Position numbers and translations under genes: made by a program
Notes under the pieces: generated by a model
Told to the model about the DNA's origin: nothing
Seen by the model: only the letters and a program-made list of their open reading frames with translations
The model's database searches: none
Source: Candidatus Hydrogenedens sp.
GTDB lineage: Bacteria; Hydrogenedentota; Hydrogenedentia; Hydrogenedentales; Hydrogenedentaceae
Reading direction: 5' to 3'
Assembly: GCA_020216745.1 (NCBI GenBank)
Contig: JAIWNQ010000092.1
Coordinates: 1 to 13,717 of the forward strand
Length of the DNA stretch: 13,717 nt
Shown: one piece after another, positions 5,254-13,711 of the stretch
How the letters are laid out: each line of letters begins with the position of its first letter
How positions within the stretch are numbered: position 1 is the first letter of the stretch

Positions 5254-7185
5254 ATGAGATTAATTCGTGTTGCAACCGCTTCTGTATCGGTTAAAGTTGG
5301 TGATTTTAAGAGGAATGCGGATACGTTATGTGAAGTTATCGAAACTGCTAAAAAGGAAGGTGTGCATTTGCTTGTTACGCCGGAGTTGGCGGTAAGCGGG
5401 TACAGTTTGGAAGACCGTTTATTCTGGGATGAAATTGTAGTACGGAGTTGGGATGATCTGAAAAGGATTGCAGAGCATACCAGAGGGATAGGTGTTTTCG
5501 TGGGTTTGCCTGTGAAGAAGGAATCGCATTTATTTAATGCAGGTGCTTTTTTATGTGATGGTCTGATACATGGATTTGTGCTGAAGAAATATTTGCCGAC
5601 ATATCAAGTATTTTATGAGGCGAGGTATTGGTCTTCGTGGGATTCAGGAACTACAGAAATTTATGATTTGCCTGCAGGGGATTTAATTTTTGACTTACCT
5701 TTTGGAAAAGTTTCTGCTGAAATTTGTGAAGATGTATGGTCATCATATTCTCCGTCTGTGGAGCGTGCTATTCATGGTGCGGAAATTATTTGTAATTTAA
5801 GTGCATCTCCTTTTAATCCGCTGAAGAACCAATTGAGAAAGCAGTTAATACTTGCGAATGCAATGCGACTAAAAGTGATATATATTTATTCTAATTTGTT
5901 AGGCTGTGATAATAGCCGTCTTGTTTTTGATGGGGGAGGTATAATTGCTACTCCTGAGGGGCATGTGGTTGAGGGGGCTATTTTATCGAATCGGAGATGG
6001 GTTTTGACATCAACTGTTATAGATTTGGATGAAGTTACACGAGTTCGTAAAGAGAATTCAACATGGAAAATGGAATCCCTTCAATATGAGAAGCAAGGGG
6101 AGTCAAAGAAGGTTATTGTGGGATTATCTCAATATAAACCGTCTCCTTTAAAAGAATGGGTTAAGGGATTGCCGAAAAGTTTTTATGTTATAGAAAAAGC
6201 AGAAGAGGATGACAAATCAATAAGTAATAATTATTTTGAGCAATTGTATAAGGCGTTATCATTAGGATTGCGGGATTATTATGAGAAGGTAGGCATATTT
6301 GAAATGTTTTTGGTCGCTCTTTCAGGGGGTAGAGATAGTGCATTATGTTTGCTTCTTGCTGTTGAGGCGGGAAAGAATTTAAACGAAGGTAAACATCCAG
6401 AGAAGTATAGAGAGAAGGTTGCGTGTATTTATTTGCCACATAAAGAATATAGTAGCACAGCAACAAGGGAATCCGCAGAAGCGTTAGCTAAGGAATTAGA
6501 AGTGCCATTTAAGTTGGTTTCTATTCATGAGGAGGCGGAGATAGCCCTTAAAAAGGCGGAAGAAATTGTAGGTTCTGGTAAGAATATCAAACCGTTAACA
6601 CGACAAAATCTTCAAGCGCGTATTCGTGGTGCTATGATGCTTAATTGGGCTAATAATGTGAATGGGTTATTATTGGTTACATCTAATTTAAGTGAGTCGG
6701 CGGTGGGATATACCACAACAGGTGGAGATAACGAAGGAGGATTTTCTCCAATTGCAAACGTGCCAAAGACGGTTATATCTTCACTACTTGAGTATCTTGC
6801 GGAGACAAGAGGTATTAAGTCATTAGAAAAAATTCTTAAGATTCCACCGACGGCAGAATTAGCCCCAAATCAGACAGATGAGGGTGACCTTATGCCGTAT
6901 AGGGTTTTAGATGAGTTAATATATTTGTTTGCAAAGCAGAGATTCTCGCTTGTGGACTGTTGGCGGGTTATATGTATAAGATTTCCAGAATATACATCGG
7001 AACAATTGAAAAAATGGACAGAAGACTTTGCAAAGAGGTTTGTTGCAAATCAATGGAAACGTGACCAGCATCCCGTTTCATTAAAGGTGCTTGAACCTGA
7101 TTTTGACCCCAAAACAGGATTTCGTTTTCCAGTTATTCAAAGTATTGATAGTGAGATTGAAGAACTTAAAAAGGCGAAGCTCTAA
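5254..7185 (+). CDS. nadE: Glutamine-dependent NAD+ synthetase
   Basis: Amidates nicotinate adenine dinucleotide (deamido-NAD) to NAD+, using ammonia made from glutamine; the last step of NAD synthesis. 643 residues in two domains. The N-terminal nitrilase-type glutaminase (1 to about 280) shows the Glu-Lys-Cys triad: E44 in TPELAVSGY, K112 in KKYLPTY and C158 in EICEDVW. The C-terminal synthetase domain has the ATP-pyrophosphatase loop SGGRDS (357-362) and the family-typical SNLSESAVGY and GGFSPIANVPKT. An Arg replaces the usual small or aliphatic residue in SGGxDS. Start ATG 5254 follows TAGGAG that overlaps the pncB stop. NadD, which would link pncB to this enzyme, is not in the window. 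The stop codon overlaps that of the convergent glycosidase gene by 4 bp, and no terminator lies between them. Confidence 0.96.
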   Translation: MRLIRVATASVSVKVGDFKRNADTLCEVIETAKKEGVHLLVTPELAVSGYSLEDRLFWDEIVVRSWDDLKRIAEHTRGIGVFVGLPVKKESHLFNAGAFLCDGLIHGFVLKKYLPTYQVFYEARYWSSWDSGTTEIYDLPAGDLIFDLPFGKVSAEICEDVWSSYSPSVERAIHGAEIICNLSASPFNPLKNQLRKQLILANAMRLKVIYIYSNLLGCDNSRLVFDGGGIIATPEGHVVEGAILSNRRWVLTSTVIDLDEVTRVRKENSTWKMESLQYEKQGESKKVIVGLSQYKPSPLKEWVKGLPKSFYVIEKAEEDDKSISNNYFEQLYKALSLGLRDYYEKVGIFEMFLVALSGGRDSALCLLLAVEAGKNLNEGKHPEKYREKVACIYLPHKEYSSTATRESAEALAKELEVPFKLVSIHEEAEIALKKAEEIVGSGKNIKPLTRQNLQARIRGAMMLNWANNVNGLLLVTSNLSESAVGYTTTGGDNEGGFSPIANVPKTVISSLLEYLAETRGIKSLEKILKIPPTAELAPNQTDEGDLMPYRVLDELIYLFAKQRFSLVDCWRVICIRFPEYTSEQLKKWTEDFAKRFVANQWKRDQHPVSLKVLEPDFDPKTGFRFPVIQSIDSEIEELKKAKL

Positions 7186-9179
7186 TTTTTAGGTTTGAGG
7201 AACTTTACAGAGCCACCGAGTATGAATATTGGATAGCCCTTGCGTAGATTTAATGTTATAATTGCTTTTTTGTTGTATTCTGACATTGTTTCACCCATGA
7301 GATTTTGAATTTTTACAGGAGGTGAGATAATTCTGGCGGTTAAGTGTGTGTCTTCTTTTGTAGGCCAGAGGACAATGGTTTCACCTTGTTTAAATGCGAT
7401 GATGTTATTTCCAAGATTATCACAATTGTTTATTTTATTATCAGGCAGTAAATTACATATATTAGCACATGCACGTAATGCAGGTTTGGGTGCAAAGTTA
7501 TTTTTGATGATCCCGAAGTTAGATTCAAAATAAAATGGGTCATCACCATCATTTCGGAAATCATACCAGCTGATATTTTGAACGGCACCTGAAGCAATGG
7601 CTGATAGGTAAGAACGTGCCAGGAGTAATGCTTGTTCTCGTTCAGTTACACCGTTTTGCCATAGATGGCTACTCCATCCCATTTCAGTTATCCATACAGG
7701 GCGGTTTTGAACTTGATTTGCTACCCTTTTTAATTCGAATATGAATTTTTCTTCATCAAGAACTCTTCGATAAGGATGTATGGTTAGAATGTCAAACGGA
7801 GTACCAGCTTTCATACAGAAATCTATAAAATTGAAATCAATTCCTGATGTAGAAATTGCAAGGACCTGTGCTGAAGGGTCAACTCTCTTAATGGTTTCAT
7901 AACACCTTTTTACTAATTCTGGATAAAGTTCTTTGGGTCCCTGCCAGAAGAATATATTGGGTTCATTATAAATTTCCCAAAACTTAACTCTGTCCTTAAA
8001 ATGCTCTACTGTAGCTTCAGTATAGCGAACGAAATCTTCAATCCCTTTGAGAGTATAGGGTTCTGTCCAGTTTGACCAATAACAAAGAATGCCATACACA
8101 CTAATGCCATAATTTAATGCTGTATTTACAAGATTGTCATAATAATCAAATTGAAATTTTCCGGGTTCAGGTTCTATATGAGCCCACACAAAATCTTCTC
8201 TTGTCCATTTGATGCCTGCTCTGGAAGCAATTTCTGCGGATAATTCACGGCTTTTTTGGTCAGAACCGTAACGAAGTAAATATAATCCCATGCCCCATGG
8301 GGAATCTGGGGCTATTTTTCTATTAATTGGATAATCGAGATTTCTGCAGTATGTTGTATTCACATTGAAACTTTGTAAATCGTTTCTTTCAAAAATCCAG
8401 TTTATTTCGATGACATTTTTTTCGATGGGAATGTGTGCAGGTATTTTTATATTTATAGGTTGAGCATTTGGGGGTAATGTTAGGTCTTGCGAATATGAGG
8501 AGATAATATTTTGTTCCCAATCTGTTAAATGGACAGTTAATTTGCCACAAACATTTTGAGGTAGAAGATTTATAAAAGTGCATGAAGAGAAAATGCTGTC
8601 TTTGTTGTTCTCCTCATTTTTGGGAATAAGAACACATTCTTGATTAGGCGTAATTTCTGTCTCACATTTGAAATCTAATATTTGTAGATGTAATATATCG
8701 CTTGGGCATGCTGATTTTCTTATTTCTAAACTTAAGAATCTTAGGGGTAGACGTACCCTGCCGTCGTTCTCACCAGAGTGAAAATTCCATCCCTCAGGGG
8801 GAGCATTGAATTCTATTACCTGTTCGCCAAAACGTAGAGGACCTATGCTTTTTTGGAAAAACTGAAAATGTGAAGCAAAAATAAAGTTTAATTCGCTTCC
8901 AGAAGAACTTGACCACAGATGTAGTATGAATTTTTTTGGTGAACCGAACAAAGATAAAGATGGATGGTTAAAGACAGCGATGTCCGTTTTAGAGAAATCT
9001 ATTTCCCAATAAGGGTCTTTAAAGTTTGTATTTGAAAAGTAAAGAGGCGGATTGTCGGGTAAAAATTTTATGGGTTCATATTGTATTGTTTTCGATGGAG
9101 CATCTGCCAAACATATTTCACAGAGAGATAAAAATAGGAATAAGAAAAAAATAGTTATTTTTACTTTTATGCTTCTCAT
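7182..9179 (-). CDS. Secreted clan GH-A glycoside hydrolase (GH39/PslG-like)
   Basis: A probable polysaccharide-cleaving enzyme working outside the cytoplasm. 665 residues. Residues 1 to about 25 are a Sec signal (basic start, FFLFLFL core, likely cut after CLA); no proper lipobox. Residues 26-290 form an N-terminal beta-rich region I do not recognise, with a possible carbohydrate-binding role. A TIM-barrel domain runs from about 291 (SPWGMGLYLLRYG) to 600. Its acid/base glutamate is E406 in WEIYNEPN and its nucleophile is E499 in WITEMGWSS, the clan GH-A pair, with DFVWAHIEPEPGKFQFDYYD at the second strand. The barrel resembles GH39 and the biofilm glycosidase PslG most, but GH5 or another GH-A family cannot be excluded by eye. 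Ribosome site AAAGGG lies eight bases before the ATG. Divergent from the microprotein unit. Confidence 0.85.
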   Translation of the reverse strand: MRSIKVKITIFFLFLFLSLCEICLADAPSKTIQYEPIKFLPDNPPLYFSNTNFKDPYWEIDFSKTDIAVFNHPSLSLFGSPKKFILHLWSSSSGSELNFIFASHFQFFQKSIGPLRFGEQVIEFNAPPEGWNFHSGENDGRVRLPLRFLSLEIRKSACPSDILHLQILDFKCETEITPNQECVLIPKNEENNKDSIFSSCTFINLLPQNVCGKLTVHLTDWEQNIISSYSQDLTLPPNAQPINIKIPAHIPIEKNVIEINWIFERNDLQSFNVNTTYCRNLDYPINRKIAPDSPWGMGLYLLRYGSDQKSRELSAEIASRAGIKWTREDFVWAHIEPEPGKFQFDYYDNLVNTALNYGISVYGILCYWSNWTEPYTLKGIEDFVRYTEATVEHFKDRVKFWEIYNEPNIFFWQGPKELYPELVKRCYETIKRVDPSAQVLAISTSGIDFNFIDFCMKAGTPFDILTIHPYRRVLDEEKFIFELKRVANQVQNRPVWITEMGWSSHLWQNGVTEREQALLLARSYLSAIASGAVQNISWYDFRNDGDDPFYFESNFGIIKNNFAPKPALRACANICNLLPDNKINNCDNLGNNIIAFKQGETIVLWPTKEDTHLTARIISPPVKIQNLMGETMSEYNKKAIITLNLRKGYPIFILGGSVKFLKPKN

Positions 9180-9507
9180 TCTTTGACCCTTTCTTTAAGA
9201 ATATTAAAGGTTTTGATTACGCTTTGATTCTAAGGTTATTTTATGTGTATCAATTTATAAGTTTCTTTTAATAGGCATGCTATAATGCGATTAATATAAA
9301 TATAAAAGCAAAAATTTACTAATATGTTCTGCTAATTCATAAATAAACGATATTTAATTAAAAAATATACTTTAATTTAACATACTATAACAAAATATCG
9401 TATGTAAAGGCGGTGATATAGAAATTTAGGAATGCATTAAAAATATTAAATATTATGTGTAAAATAGTAAATTTTTATTTTGAATTAATTTTGTAAAAAT
9501 TTGTTAT
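9180..9507. other. AT-rich intergenic region with no supported gene
   Basis: No reading frame with a ribosome site is seen between the glycosidase start and the microprotein promoter. The stretch is very AT-rich. It contains a TGC-TATAAT extended -10 motif at 9278-9286 without a good -35 and a 9-bp inverted repeat, ACGATATTT at 9347-9355 with its complement at 9393-9401. The leftward promoter of the glycosidase should lie here, but no convincing -35/-10 pair was found. An rRNA- or tRNA-like structure was not seen. Confidence 0.5.
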
Positions 9508-9536
9508 TTGCATTTTAAGAGAGAGTGATGTATAAT
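9508..9536 (+). promoter_or_regulatory. Promoter of the microprotein unit
   Basis: TTGCAT (9508-9513), a 17-base spacer and a perfect TATAAT (9531-9536) give a sound sigma70-type promoter. Start is expected near 9543, leaving a leader of about 105 bases before the first microprotein ATG. The leader contains two inverted repeats. Together with the terminator at 9936-9970 this defines a transcript of roughly 430 bases. Confidence 0.65.
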
Positions 9537-9584
9537 TTGTAAACAATTATTGAGTTTATATAATTTTGTTAGTAAGGTATTTTT

Positions 9585-9642
9585 TAACTCCAAAGTGAGG
9601 AGTTATTTTATAAACGTATTTTCATCCGTAAATGAAAGGAGT
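9585..9642 (+). promoter_or_regulatory. Structured leader with possible Shine-Dalgarno switch
   Basis: TAACTCC (9585-9591) pairs perfectly with GGAGTTA (9599-9605) around a 7-base loop. A second inverted repeat, TTTCAT (9620-9625) with ATGAAA (9632-9637), ends directly at the Shine-Dalgarno AAAGGAG. The ACTCC of the first arm (9587-9591) could instead pair with GGAGT of the Shine-Dalgarno (9638-9642), giving two mutually exclusive folds, one of which hides the ribosome site. The repeats are seen; regulation is inferred. It matches no riboswitch I recognise. Confidence 0.4.
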
Positions 9643-9647
9643 AAAAA

Positions 9648-9758
9648 ATGATTTTGGCTGATTTAATTAATATTATAGTCGGCGTGGTGATAAAGTTTTT
9701 TGCCAGCTGGCTCACACAACAGCTTTTGTCTTTGTTTGGTGTTTCAAGTAGTTCATAA
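9648..9758 (+). CDS. Microprotein 1: 36-residue predicted amphipathic helix, function unknown
   Basis: A 36-residue ORF with a strong Shine-Dalgarno (AAAGGAG at 9635-9641, six bases before ATG). It starts MILADLINIIVGVV and ends LLSLFGVSSSS. Polar or small residues fall at positions 5, 8, 12, 16, 20, 23-25, 28 and 31, every three or four residues, so a helix would have a narrow polar stripe and a broad hydrophobic face. One Asp and one Lys give about zero net charge. There is no signal peptide, double-glycine leader or cysteine. It is cotranscribed with microprotein 2, which has a similar pattern. It could be a membrane-active peptide (phenol-soluble-modulin-like or leaderless bacteriocin), a type I-like toxin or a small membrane subunit. 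The real coding nature is supported by the ribosome site and the neighbour, not by homology. Confidence 0.7.
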   Translation: MILADLINIIVGVVIKFFASWLTQQLLSLFGVSSSS

Positions 9759-9783
9759 AAATAAATCATAGGAGGGTAAAATT

Positions 9784-9909
9784 ATGAATTTTAATTTATT
9801 ATTAAAACAAATTATTGTAACAGTTGTGGAATATTTCACAGGATTAGTTACCAAAATATTGACAGGTTTCTTTTCTGGTTTAACAGGTAAAGAACCTGAA
9901 AAAGAGTAG
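9784..9909 (+). CDS. Microprotein 2: 41-residue predicted amphipathic helix, function unknown
   Basis: A 41-residue ORF preceded by GGAGGG (9771-9776), seven bases before the ATG. It starts 25 bp after microprotein 1 stops. It begins MNFNLLLKQIIVTVVEYF and ends in a charged tail, GKEPEKE. Polar residues at 4, 8-9, 13, 16, 20, 23-24, 27, 31 and 34 again repeat every three or four positions. Four Lys and four Glu balance. It aligns with microprotein 1 over IIVxVVxxF and, with one gap, a later TxxL and F, suggesting an old duplication. No signal peptide, leader cleavage site, immunity gene or transporter is nearby, which argues against a classical bacteriocin. A strong terminator follows 26 bases after the stop. 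Function is unknown. Confidence 0.72.
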   Translation: MNFNLLLKQIIVTVVEYFTGLVTKILTGFFSGLTGKEPEKE

Positions 9910-9935
9910 TTTTTTTAAGGTAATACTATTTATAT

Positions 9936-9970
9936 GGCTTGTAGAGAAAATTCTCTACAAGCCGTTTTTT
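9936..9970 (+). terminator. Intrinsic terminator ending the microprotein unit
   Basis: A perfect 13-bp stem, GGCTTGTAGAGAA (9936-9948) with its complement at 9951-9963, is followed by G and six T (9965-9970). The inner A-T pairs probably open to give a 4- to 6-base loop. It ends two bases before the start codon of the next gene at 9972, an unusually tight placement. Confidence 0.93.
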
Positions 9971-9971
9971 A

Positions 9972-11114
9972 ATGGATATAAAAGTGAATAGAAGAACATT
10001 TTTAAAGAGTATGTCTGTGTGTTTCCCTACTTTTTTGATAGGGACAAGAAACCTGTTATTTGCGGAAAGAAGTGGGGATATAGAAAAAAAAGATTTGTTG
10101 GTATCGAATAAATCTATCTCAGGTCAATGGGGTAAATATCACGGTTTTAATTTGTTAAATTATTTTATGGTTCATGGAATGACGCCATTTAAGGAGGAAG
10201 AGTTTTTAGCAATACATAAATTGGGTTTTAACTTTGTTCGTTTGCCTATGGATTATCGTTGTTGGACAGAGGAGAATTCTCCCTATAATATTAAAGAGGA
10301 AGTATTGCAGGGGATAGATAAAGCGATAGAATTTGGTAAGAACTATGGGATTCATGTATGTTTAAATTTTCATCGGGCGCCAGGGTGGACTGTAGCAAAA
10401 CCAGAGGAAAAATTAAATTTATGGGAGGAGGAAGAGGCGTTAAATCTATGTGCTTATCACTGGCGTATTTTTGCGGAAAGGTATAAGGATATTCCCTCCA
10501 ATGAATTGAGTTTTAATCTTTTTAATGAACCAGGTAATGTGTCTGCTGAAAAACATAAAAAGGTGGTCGGTAAATTAATTGAAGAAATTCGTAAAGTAAA
10601 TGAAACTCGACCTATTCATTGTGATGGTAGGTTATGGGGAGCATTTCCTCCTGTTGAACTGGCTGATTTTGGTATTGTTGCCAATTTACATATGTACCAA
10701 CCTTTTACAATTACGCACTATAAGGCTTCTTGGGCTGGACAATGGGATGGGGTTCCAGTTCCTGATTATCCATATAAAGAAGGTGAGATTGTTTGGGATA
10801 AAGATAGATTAAGAGAGAAGATAATAAAGCCATGGAAATCTTTAGAAGAAAAAGGCATACCTATATTTGTAGGTGAATTTGGGGCATATAATAAGACACC
10901 TCATAAAGCGGTATTAAAATGGATGGAGGATTGCCTTTCTTTATTTTACGAGGCAGGATGGGGTTGGTCGTTATGGAATTTTATAGGTCCATTTGGTCCT
11001 GTTGATTCTGGAAGGGAAGATGTGCAGTATGAGGATTGGGAAGGACATAAGTTGGATAGACAAATGCTTAATTTATTACAAATAATATGTGGAAATAAGA
11101 AGAAAGTCAAGTAG
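9972..11114 (+). CDS. Tat-exported GH5-like glycoside hydrolase (cellulase family)
   Basis: Probably cleaves a beta-linked polysaccharide outside the cytoplasm. 380 residues. A twin-arginine signal, NRRTFLKS at 6-13, is followed by a hydrophobic stretch and likely cleavage near LLFA (28-31). The TIM-barrel shows GH5 landmarks in order: GFNFVRLPMDYR, LNFHRAPGW, E186 (acid/base) in LFNEPG, HMYQP near 237, E302 (nucleophile) in VGEFGAYN and GWSLWNFIGPFGPVDSGR at the end. No binding module is attached. Start is uncertain: ATG 9972 directly follows a terminator T-run and lacks a Shine-Dalgarno; a GTG at 9984 keeps the Tat motif but also has only a weak site. Expression may depend on terminator readthrough. 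The surface propeller gene follows after 53 bp. Confidence 0.88.
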   Translation: MDIKVNRRTFLKSMSVCFPTFLIGTRNLLFAERSGDIEKKDLLVSNKSISGQWGKYHGFNLLNYFMVHGMTPFKEEEFLAIHKLGFNFVRLPMDYRCWTEENSPYNIKEEVLQGIDKAIEFGKNYGIHVCLNFHRAPGWTVAKPEEKLNLWEEEEALNLCAYHWRIFAERYKDIPSNELSFNLFNEPGNVSAEKHKKVVGKLIEEIRKVNETRPIHCDGRLWGAFPPVELADFGIVANLHMYQPFTITHYKASWAGQWDGVPVPDYPYKEGEIVWDKDRLREKIIKPWKSLEEKGIPIFVGEFGAYNKTPHKAVLKWMEDCLSLFYEAGWGWSLWNFIGPFGPVDSGREDVQYEDWEGHKLDRQMLNLLQIICGNKKKVK

Positions 11115-11167
11115 TTTGAGGAGTGTTTTTAAGCGAAATAAAAATTAATATAAGAGGAAGGAAGGAG

Positions 11168-13711
11168 ATGTTTTATTTCTTATATGTTAATAGGATAATA
11201 TATCTGCCGTTCTTACTTTTTGCTCTCTTTTTTAATTTTTGTTTGTTTGCAGGTAGTGAAGAATTTTATAAAGGCAAATTAGATAGGCAATTTGATGTTT
11301 TTTTGCCTTTTTCCTTATCCCGTGCCAATGCCGAATTTAAATTTCAATGTAGAGACATAAATAATGTCAATGGTCATTTTTTCGTCAGAAAGTATTTCGG
11401 CATAAGCGAATTTGTGTTTTCTACAATGGACGGGATTCGTCAAGATTTTGTTATTTATGAAAGAATTTATGGAGAGGGACCTCTTAGGTTAAACTTGTTA
11501 ACGTTAAATCAGAAAGTAGAAACCAATTCTGGAACAGTGGCTATTCTTAATTGTAAAAATACTATGTACTCAAGGCTTTATGTCTTTGATGTGTTTGGGC
11601 GTAAACTTCCTGCTAAGTTCGTTATGAATGATGATGCTGGTATGGTGAGTATTGAAATTGAGGACAATGAAGCTTGTTATCCATTGTATGTCGACCCTAC
11701 TTACTTGGATGGAGATTGGGAATCTTTGAGTTCCAACTGGACTGATGGAGTTGTAACATCAATTGTGGCTGATACCAATGGTAACATTTATTGTGGAGGT
11801 AGTTTTACATCGATTAATAATATTCCTGCAAAGAGAGTGGCAAAATGGAATGGAACTCAATGGCAACAAATGGGGAATGGATTTGACGATGGTGCGGTAG
11901 AAAAGATGGTTTTAGGTCAGGGTGGAGTTATTTATGCAGGTGGGTCGTTTACTCGTTCTGGGACGACATACTTTAACCGTATTGCAAAGTGGACAGGTTC
12001 AAATTGGACGACTCTTGGAAATGGGTTTAACGATGTTGTTTATGCGGTTGCAGTAACGAGTGATGGTAGGTTGTTTGCAGGTGGTAAGTTTACACAATCA
12101 GGAGGGTCACCAGTTATGTATTTTAGTCGAATTGCTTTTTGGAATGGGTCAGTTTGGAGTGAGCCTTACTTTGGAGTAAGTGGAGGTAGCAACCCGAGTG
12201 TAACTGCTCTTGCTACAGATTCTAATGGGAATGTATATGTTGGAGGGGAGTTTCAAAGTGCAGGGAGCCTTTCTGTATCTAACATAGCTTATTGGGACGG
12301 GACTAATTGGCATGCAATGGGTAGTGGCGTGAATGGACCTGTAAATGCTTTAGCGGTAAGCTCAGCAGGTAAAGTTTATGCAGGTGGTAATTTTACAATT
12401 GCAGGGGGTGTAAGTGCTGGTAAAATCGCAGTCTGGGATGGTTCCATCTGGGAACCTTTAAATGGAGGTATCAACGGGATTGTATATTCAATTGTTACCC
12501 CATCAGAGGGTTCTATTTTCGTGGGTGGAGATTTTACCTTTGCAGGAGGGAGTATCCCATCTAATTCGTTGGCATGGTGGTATGACAGTGATTGGCGTAG
12601 TATAACCTCTGGAGTAAGTGGAGGTTCTCATTATATAAAAGGTTTAGCAGTTGATTCTTCTGAAAATTTATATGTGGGCGGAAATTTTTATACTGTTGGT
12701 GGAATAGAGAGTTATAAAATAGGCAAACTCAAAAAACCACCCTCATATACAATTCATTATTTTACAGGGATAGGGGGTAGTATTTCTGGAGATGAAACGC
12801 AAATTATAATGCGGGGTGATAATGGAACAGAGGTTGTAGCAGTTCCTGATTCAGGTTATATTTTTGACCATTGGTCCGATGGAGTATTAACATCCAATAG
12901 AAGTGAATTAAATGTAACGGAGAGTAGAGATTATACAGCATATTTTATTTTAATAAGTGAAGGTATAAATGAGGGAGAAGGTATAACGGAAGGGGTTTCG
13001 GAAGGGGTCATTGAAGGAGAAGGTCTTGTTGAGGGGGAAGGGTTGGTAGAAGGTTCTCAAGAAGGAATTGTTGAAGGAGAAGGTGTCGTTGAAGGTTATT
13101 TAGAAGGAATGGTGGAGGGATTTTCAGAGGGGACCATGGAAGGCACATCAGAAGGAGTGATAGAAGGGGTAATGGAAGGGATTGTCGAAGGGGAAGGTCT
13201 TATAGAAGGCTTTCAAGAAGGAGTTGATGAGGGAGAAGGGTCAATGGAAGGTTATCATGAGGGAAATACTGAGGGACAAGAAGGGAATGTTGAAGGGGAA
13301 GGTTGTAATGAAGGAGAACCTATGCTTTCCGCATGGATTGAGGAAGGGGATTATATAAACAAGGTTGTAGGGGAAGATTGTGTCTTTTCAGTTCAGGTAA
13401 AGGATGCACATGGACTTATCAATTATCAATGGTATTATTGTAAGGAGTTCAATTGTTCGTCTCCTGTAATATTCCATGATATTGCATCTCAGTCTTTAGT
13501 AATTGAACATGTAGAGGTGGAAGATTCTGGTTGGTATTGGTGTCAGGTATCCGATGATTTTTATGTCGTTGAGACACAAAAAGTTTATTTGAATGTTCAC
13601 TATGGTTTAAGTGTGAATTTGTTTCCTATCCCTTGTATACTCTTAGGGGGACTTTTGTTGGGTGTATACTTTATATCGAAAAGCCGAAAACAGGATTTAA
13701 AAAGGGATTGA
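11168..13711 (+). CDS. Large secreted beta-propeller / xxEG-repeat / Ig-like protein with C-terminal membrane tail
   Basis: An 847-residue surface or envelope protein of unknown role, perhaps binding or adhesion. ATG 11168 is chosen because GAGGAAG lies seven bases upstream; a GTG at 11123 in frame has none. Residues 1 to about 27 form a signal peptide. Residues 30-180 are a beta-rich lead-in ending YPLYVDPT, common before bacterial propellers. Seven repeats of about 45-50 residues (195 to about 522) share IYxGGxFTxxG ... IAxWxGxxW. The strand WESL before blade 1 can close blade 7, which lacks it. Residues about 529-594 are an InlB-B-like repeat (GYIFDHWSDGV). Residues 597-718 are an acidic xxEG repeat. 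An Ig-like domain follows (YQWYYC ... DSGWYWC, about 719-810). The end has a membrane segment (CILLGGLLLGVYF) and a basic tail (KSRKQDLKR), as in sorting signals. Confidence 0.87.
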   Translation: MFYFLYVNRIIYLPFLLFALFFNFCLFAGSEEFYKGKLDRQFDVFLPFSLSRANAEFKFQCRDINNVNGHFFVRKYFGISEFVFSTMDGIRQDFVIYERIYGEGPLRLNLLTLNQKVETNSGTVAILNCKNTMYSRLYVFDVFGRKLPAKFVMNDDAGMVSIEIEDNEACYPLYVDPTYLDGDWESLSSNWTDGVVTSIVADTNGNIYCGGSFTSINNIPAKRVAKWNGTQWQQMGNGFDDGAVEKMVLGQGGVIYAGGSFTRSGTTYFNRIAKWTGSNWTTLGNGFNDVVYAVAVTSDGRLFAGGKFTQSGGSPVMYFSRIAFWNGSVWSEPYFGVSGGSNPSVTALATDSNGNVYVGGEFQSAGSLSVSNIAYWDGTNWHAMGSGVNGPVNALAVSSAGKVYAGGNFTIAGGVSAGKIAVWDGSIWEPLNGGINGIVYSIVTPSEGSIFVGGDFTFAGGSIPSNSLAWWYDSDWRSITSGVSGGSHYIKGLAVDSSENLYVGGNFYTVGGIESYKIGKLKKPPSYTIHYFTGIGGSISGDETQIIMRGDNGTEVVAVPDSGYIFDHWSDGVLTSNRSELNVTESRDYTAYFILISEGINEGEGITEGVSEGVIEGEGLVEGEGLVEGSQEGIVEGEGVVEGYLEGMVEGFSEGTMEGTSEGVIEGVMEGIVEGEGLIEGFQEGVDEGEGSMEGYHEGNTEGQEGNVEGEGCNEGEPMLSAWIEEGDYINKVVGEDCVFSVQVKDAHGLINYQWYYCKEFNCSSPVIFHDIASQSLVIEHVEVEDSGWYWCQVSDDFYVVETQKVYLNVHYGLSVNLFPIPCILLGGLLLGVYFISKSRKQDLKRD
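12956..13321 (+). repeat. Degenerate xxEG tetrapeptide repeat inside the propeller protein
   Basis: 122 codons hold about 34 Glu-Gly dipeptides in a 4-residue period with the form xxEG, sometimes doubled to EGEG. The sense strand is very purine-rich (GAAGGA, GAAGGG). The variable pairs are often hydrophobic (VI, LV, IV, MV, FS). Synonymous codons vary, so it is an old repeat kept at protein level rather than a recent slippage product. The segment is strongly acidic and probably acts as a spacer or cation-binding stalk between the InlB-like domain and the Ig-like domain. Confidence 0.9.

Follow-up and report, generated by a model that had tools for sequence, protein, structure and literature searches.

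Do the two short open reading frames (ORFs) at 9648..9909 of the window, by which we mean the whole analysed stretch of 13,717 nucleotides from Candidatus Hydrogenedens sp. (genome 86% complete), represent genes, and if so, to which families do their products belong and what could they do? A preliminary description, made from the sequence of the window, had proposed a tandem pair of unannotated amphipathic microproteins, possibly membrane-active, in a transcription unit of their own. The locus comprises the following features:

7182..9179, minus strand: divergent glycoside-hydrolase-like protein, best Pfam match Glyco_hydro_42; a neighbour at genus level only
9507..9536, plus strand: likely sigma-70 type promoter, TTTGCA-18-TATAAT (promoter scan; alignment of the -10 element in the genus)
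9585..9605, plus strand: 5' leader hairpin, TAACTCC-loop-GGAGTTA, in three of four genus genomes and absent from G028
9635..9641, plus strand: Shine-Dalgarno site of ORF A, AAAGGAG
9648..9758, plus strand: ORF A, encoding microprotein A (36 aa), predicted single amphipathic helix at residues 2-31
9771..9776, plus strand: Shine-Dalgarno site of ORF B, GGAGGG
9784..9909, plus strand: ORF B, encoding microprotein B (41 aa), predicted single amphipathic helix at residues 3-34 and polar tail GKEP
9934..9970, plus strand: intrinsic terminator, 14-pair stem (9934-9965) followed by a T run
9972..11114, plus strand: glycoside hydrolase of family GH5 (Pfam); a neighbour at genus level only

Inspection of the locus bore out the two ORFs with good Shine-Dalgarno sites, which are normally spaced in both cases, and a gap of 25 bases between ORF A and ORF B. 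Their bracketing by a promoter and a terminator was upheld for the terminator, with its 14-pair stem and 2 terminator-like sites in 9300-10300 compared with 0.2 in shuffled sequences. Promoter-like sites numbered 10 versus 6.6 (sd 2.2) in shuffles and the promoter alone is weak evidence, although its TATAAT (9531-9536) is conserved in three of the four genus genomes when these are aligned. G029 and G030 also have a terminator hairpin at this position, but its stem differs in sequence. A strict scan for perfect stems detected a terminator after B in 14 of 24 pairs and none in the other 10, including G028; some of these 10 pairs perhaps have bulged stems. The 5' arm of the leader hairpin, TAACTCC, is complementary to the GGAG of the ORF A Shine-Dalgarno site and could act as a translational switch in the three genus genomes that have it. 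Single-sequence folds compared by eye revealed no 5' leader structure common to the genera.

The preliminary description had named frameshifts or a lack of purifying selection in relatives as arguments against the ORFs being genes. This comparison was carried out and favours genes, with an intact reading frame and visible selection. The A+B pair is intact and in unchanged order in all four genus genomes, and the relatives share 64-69% identical aa with the window's A and 57-63% with its B. Differences at codon positions 1, 2 and 3 amounted to 49/17/108 for A and 55/22/107 for B (six comparisons summed, four genomes). In 18 of 20 comparisons, amino-acid changes were as few as observed in at most 3% of random placements (at most 2% in 17 of them and 2.9% in the 18th), whereas B of G005a/G006 (0.157) and A of G004a/G005b (0.47) showed no clear selection; the control places the same number of changes randomly, a simple procedure that takes no account of repeated hits, and paralogues may be among the pairs compared. 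Judged by this conservation, A and B are genes that are kept by purifying selection. The leader and terminator hairpins might instead suggest chance ORFs within a non-coding RNA or a leader, but frame, Shine-Dalgarno sites and amino acids are conserved in 21 genomes alongside third-position change, and Rfam returned no match at gathering score for the window or for 19 related loci. At E-values up to 5, 11 Rfam matches appeared in 9300-10100, all far below their gathering scores. A known structured RNA was rejected on these grounds, and chance ORFs, contradicted by the conserved frame, the selection and the codon pattern, retain a negligible probability.

Window B weakly matched small ORFs of other genera; one of these, used as the next query, led to tandem pairs throughout family f3. 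Two merged profiles, one for A and one for B and each of 22 sequences, revealed 25 tandem A+B pairs in all 21 genomes of the families f1 (4 genomes) and f3 (17 genomes). Within these families no E-value exceeded 3.7e-9 for A or 2.2e-11 for B; such low values are partly built in, because most of these sequences sit in the profiles. An untrained test with profiles built only from G004-G006, G011, G012 and G015-G017 (genera g4, g6, g8 and g9) recovered adjacent A and B ORFs in G008, G009, G010, G018 and G020, with E-values of 7e-5 to 2e-3 for A and 4e-4 to 0.013 for B. The search with merged profiles covered 386 genomes, at most 68 of them within the phylum. The best matches in the remaining 47 phylum genomes had E-values of 0.001 for A (G034) and 0.0225 for B (G021), and pairs of similar look were found by eye in both of these genomes. 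For at least 318 genomes outside the phylum, the best E-value per genome was 0.005 for A and 0.0017 for B and is therefore at chance level. Shine-Dalgarno sites were seen by eye in all 24 pairs inspected, namely 23 of the 25 (all except G004:C343 and G010:C1) and the by-eye pair of G021. Pairs of the new A+B family consist of adjacent ORFs, each matching its own profile and each preceded by a Shine-Dalgarno site; some f1 and f3 genomes carrying them are only 82% complete.

A protein set of 5.8 billion sequences contained 8 clusters matching a genus-level B profile (the window's own included) and 25 clusters matching a wider profile. No cluster carried a Pfam domain, and in the two cases where an organism was named it was Hydrogenedentes. 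The word 'unannotated' in the preliminary description holds only in part: a relative of B is already public as a 'hypothetical protein'. A phage or plasmid origin of B was considered and rejected: there was no match in IMG/VR with two profiles, none in a phage collection queried with one f3 B and none in a plasmid collection queried with window B.

Profile comparisons with hhalign assigned the two peptides to separate families. Genus-level against intermediate profiles gave probabilities of 94.8% for A-A and 81.2% for B-B, and f3 against intermediate profiles gave 95.4% and 92.5% respectively; three of these alignments ran in register from residue 1 and the fourth from residue 4/5. Matches between A and B profiles, in contrast, were weak (A-B 2.0%, B-A 15.9%). 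On this sequence evidence A and B are two distinct, co-inherited families. The shared IIVxVVxxF noted in the preliminary description can be read directly in both window peptides (A residues 9-17, B residues 10-18); it is not a family feature, because A- and B-profiles barely match, and a common origin of A and B deduced from this motif was rejected on the same cross-profile values, although an f3 A profile does detect window B with an E-value of 0.0036.

Library searches likewise agree with the proposal of an undescribed small-peptide family, in the form of two microprotein genes without a family in the libraries searched. Pfam assigned no family to the two window ORFs at E 0.01, and its best match among the 22 A and 22 B members was Vma12 (E 0.035, in 2 of 22 A members). 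In NCBIfam the best match was a sub-threshold one to the Fst family (NF033608), followed by YobI (E 0.024, in 2 members). Ten representatives gave no match in PADLOC and only three unnamed matches in PHROGs (E 0.085-0.098). Among solved structures there was no match for A and one chance-level match for B (E 0.3). Taken together, the results from Rfam, Pfam, PADLOC, PHROGs and NCBIfam point to a new family that probably works by a known principle, namely that of short amphipathic helices in a membrane; the new parts are the four-residue (tetrad) pattern described below and the fixed two-gene unit.

AlphaFold2 predicted one helix per peptide (A residues 2-31, mean pLDDT 85; B residues 3-34, mean pLDDT 83) in single-chain models with an input of 4 sequences for A and 9 for B, and AlphaFold is prone to render peptides of this kind as helices. 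Both window peptides have a net charge of 0, as described before, whereas relatives range from -5 to 0 and most members are acidic; neutrality is therefore special to the window. Overall hydrophobicity is high, with GRAVY values of 0.3 to 1.6.

An ideal straight amphipathic helix has a period of 100 degrees per residue. The hydrophobic period of the 46 peptides from 23 pairs lay between 90.5 and 95.5 degrees in every case (mean 93.5, sd 1.2), and four hydrophobicity scales applied to one sequence from each of 8 genera gave means of 92.6 to 94.5. Polar residues are spaced four apart with z-values of 7.8 for A and 6.5 for B; polar or small residues pair strongly at separations of 4, 8 and 12 and are depleted at 2, 6 and 10. 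The pattern is a four-residue polar/apolar repeat, two polar and two apolar, and not a heptad. Simulated 100-degree helices returned 100 degrees with an sd of 1 to 4 depending on noise, and a reading of 96.5 or lower occurred in 0.2 to 6% of cases. As a control, 23-37% of the periodic apolar windows in ordinary proteins of the same stretches peaked at 90-96.5 degrees; a single peptide therefore proves little and it is the consistency that counts, while the 46 peptides are not 46 independent cases, because the sequences are related. The single-helix models and the periodicity support the amphipathic helices of the preliminary description, and its suggestion of membrane activity may well be correct. 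Neither the fixation of the pair in two families nor the four-residue period could be seen from the window alone.

The reading that we favour, tentatively and as a possible rather than a probable one, is that A and B are translated together and are partners in a helical assembly embedded in the membrane, which would have a core function in f1 and f3. One short mRNA would carry A and B, and with a ribosome site of its own for each, both peptides would be made together. Each would form one helix of about 30 residues, in which polar and small residues at every fourth position would wind as a right-handed polar stripe about the helix. A and B would then insert into the membrane and oligomerise with their polar and small stripes facing each other, in a right-handed A-B packing with the apolar faces toward the lipid. 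The working form may be a small channel, a scaffold or a membrane-shaping element. Its role would be a core cellular one and not that of a mobile toxin, as universal presence and purifying selection suggest.

In glycophorin A, an example of glycine-zipper or tetrad membrane helices, the helix is one membrane segment of a larger protein, whereas A and B each amount to little more than a helix and come paired. The likeness lies in small or weakly polar residues at every fourth position, a repeat that in glycophorin A gives right-handed packing of membrane helices according to the available portion of the source (PMC3347579). The accessible part of another source states that small residues four apart have often been used as a predictor of dimers without support (PMC8307134). 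Counting against the membrane assembly are the half-polar pattern, which a soluble right-handed bundle or a helix on a lipid surface could also have, the lack of a constant partner gene and the two unclear selection comparisons.

The period was also measured in 13 other microproteins of the phylum, which were chosen because the searches had turned them up: 11 of them had their peak within 90-96.5 degrees, and the other two were G001, with 97, and G034-1, with 85.5. Microproteins away from A+B pairs (L104:1501-1614 and 1842-1967, L105, L106, L088, L093, L186 and L165) often display a cleaner two-polar/two-apolar repeat and may belong to the same superfamily as A and B. G034 encodes two similar microproteins about 300 bases apart (L187, turned, 9656-9796 and 10092-10226), each with a similar leader, with GCGCTCTGGAGGCGCG. 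A broader and rather unlikely proposal is a superfamily of tetrad-repeat microproteins in Hydrogenedentota, with A+B as its universal core in two families, that would build right-handed helical pores or nanotubes wholly from peptides of about 40 residues. The literature searched on small proteins and peptides of Hydrogenedentes and Hydrogenedentota held, in the portions available, nothing on such microproteins or such an architecture.

The same repeat also bears on a different reading, in which the peptides stay within the cell and either cover a surface of lipid or polymer or assemble as a soluble right-handed filament or shell. With two polar and two apolar residues per tetrad, about half of the surface of the helix is polar or small; acidic members are in the majority, and the pattern recurs, in part more cleanly, in the other microproteins of the phylum. 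The high hydrophobicity speaks against a coat or filament, as does the lack of a meaningful match among solved structures, and we consider it improbable.

The preliminary description had also placed the pair next to cell-surface and polysaccharide genes, a link that proved not to be general. In the window the pair lies between the divergent glycoside-hydrolase-like gene and the GH5 gene. Glycoside-hydrolase neighbours are constant only in this genus, where the pair lies just upstream of a GH5-like gene in four of four genomes (the Pfam assignment to GH5 was made on the window's copy only). Ten neighbours elsewhere were identified by Pfam as an ammonium transporter, a PII protein, three GH106, a GH38, a DUF2961 protein, an alginate-export porin, a peptidase M28 and one protein without a family. 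A constant partner gene was sought across the loci among ORFs inspected by eye and these ten neighbours, and none emerged. The pairs at L171, L173, L078, L181 and L183 (g4, g5) adjoin ammonium transporter or PII genes (one each by Pfam, the others by eye), which hints at a connection with nitrogen in these lineages. At 11123-13711 the window encodes a large surface-type protein with beta-propeller repeats, InlB-like and Ig-like domains and a long Glu- and Gly-rich region of low complexity.

For the GH5 gene, the listed ATG start at 9972 is probably wrong; an alignment of relatives favours a GTG at 9984, which leads to an N-terminus that appears twin-arginine-like by eye, and the enzyme is probably secreted. 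There is no plus-strand promoter match between 9910 and 9984. GH5 is perhaps transcribed by read-through, because no promoter match follows the terminator.

Such a neighbour could be the client, in the window's genus, of exported amphipathic peptides that act outside the cell in the manner of phenol-soluble modulins (PSMs) or LspU, with the Tat-type GH5 downstream. The helices are short and, by eye, without a signal peptide, as in PSMs, and the probably secreted GH5-like gene lies directly downstream in all four genus genomes. Outside the genus, however, the next gene is often other than a secreted hydrolase or lies on the opposite strand, and no peptide exporter was recognised by eye among neighbouring ORFs of at least about 80-90 aa. 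Beta-class PSMs are encoded by tandem genes and are about 40 aa long, amphipathic and acidic to neutral, all of which applies to A and B; the latter differ by their four-residue period, their presence in every genome of two families and the lack of an exporter recognised nearby. Models of the PSM/delta-lysin family in Pfam and NCBIfam matched none of the 22 A and 22 B members at E-values up to 1. Leaderless and two-peptide bacteriocins have a patchy, strain-level distribution, whereas the A+B pair occurs in 21 of 21 f1 and f3 genomes. Immunity or peptide transport genes were not recognised among ORFs of at least about 80-90 aa inspected by eye and the ten neighbours analysed by Pfam, a survey in which a small immunity gene could be missed.

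Closer in its gene context is the Staphylococcus pair LspU/LspD, two amphipathic peptides of 21 aa encoded in the mRNA of the lipase SAL1, of which LspU keeps lipases in the cell fraction, as reported in the available part of the source (PMC12607899). The likeness consists of two short, conserved amphipathic peptides that annotation had overlooked and that are encoded near a secreted hydrolase; in contrast, LspU and LspD flank the lipase (PMC12607899), while A and B have 30-43 aa, are arranged in tandem and are linked to a hydrolase in one genus only. Expression of the window's GH5 by read-through would resemble the lipase operon as that text describes it (PMC12607899), but the resemblance is not general. 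We regard an exported function of A and B as unlikely.

Size and the single amphipathic helix also recall TisB (29 aa), as far as the accessible text on this peptide goes (PMC11449926), and would agree with type I toxin-like peptides, similar to TisB or Fst, that under stress depolarise the membrane of the cell that makes them and are controlled by leader RNA structure. Both TisB and the pair display a polar stripe on an apolar background in a short helix. However, the residues D5, K12, Q19 and K26 of TisB are seven apart, with D22 out of that register, and TisB is one peptide with an RNA antitoxin (the available portion of PMC11449926), whereas A and B are a pair whose polar residues repeat every four positions. 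Residues 9-22 of window A match the NCBIfam model of Fst (NF033608) with 23.1 bits, which is below the 26-bit cutoff, covers 14 residues only and recurs in 2 of 22 A members, the other 20 having no match. A leader hairpin is present in three of four genus genomes, but inspection by eye revealed no leader element that the genera share. No antisense RNA antitoxin was identified: promoter-like sites near the pair are about at chance level and Rfam matches are only sub-threshold (E up to 5). Type I toxin loci are patchy, unlike a pair of two conserved ORFs in 21 of 21 genomes. We regard a toxin of this type as quite improbable. The PSM-like, LspU-like and TisB/Fst-like readings all fit less well than the membrane assembly.

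Proteins under 50 residues are mostly omitted from annotation, and to our knowledge there are few examples of such proteins that are fixed in entire families of an uncultured phylum. The A+B two-gene unit is a good candidate for a lineage-specific function that is essential or nearly so, because it occurs in every sampled f1 and f3 genome, even those that are 82% complete, belongs to no known family, has no constant neighbour and, for B, was not found in the viral, phage and plasmid collections. Its four-residue helix pattern provides a direct structural prediction, namely right-handed packing. If the other microproteins with the tetrad pattern belong with A and B, they would represent a new class of membrane assemblies built from peptides.
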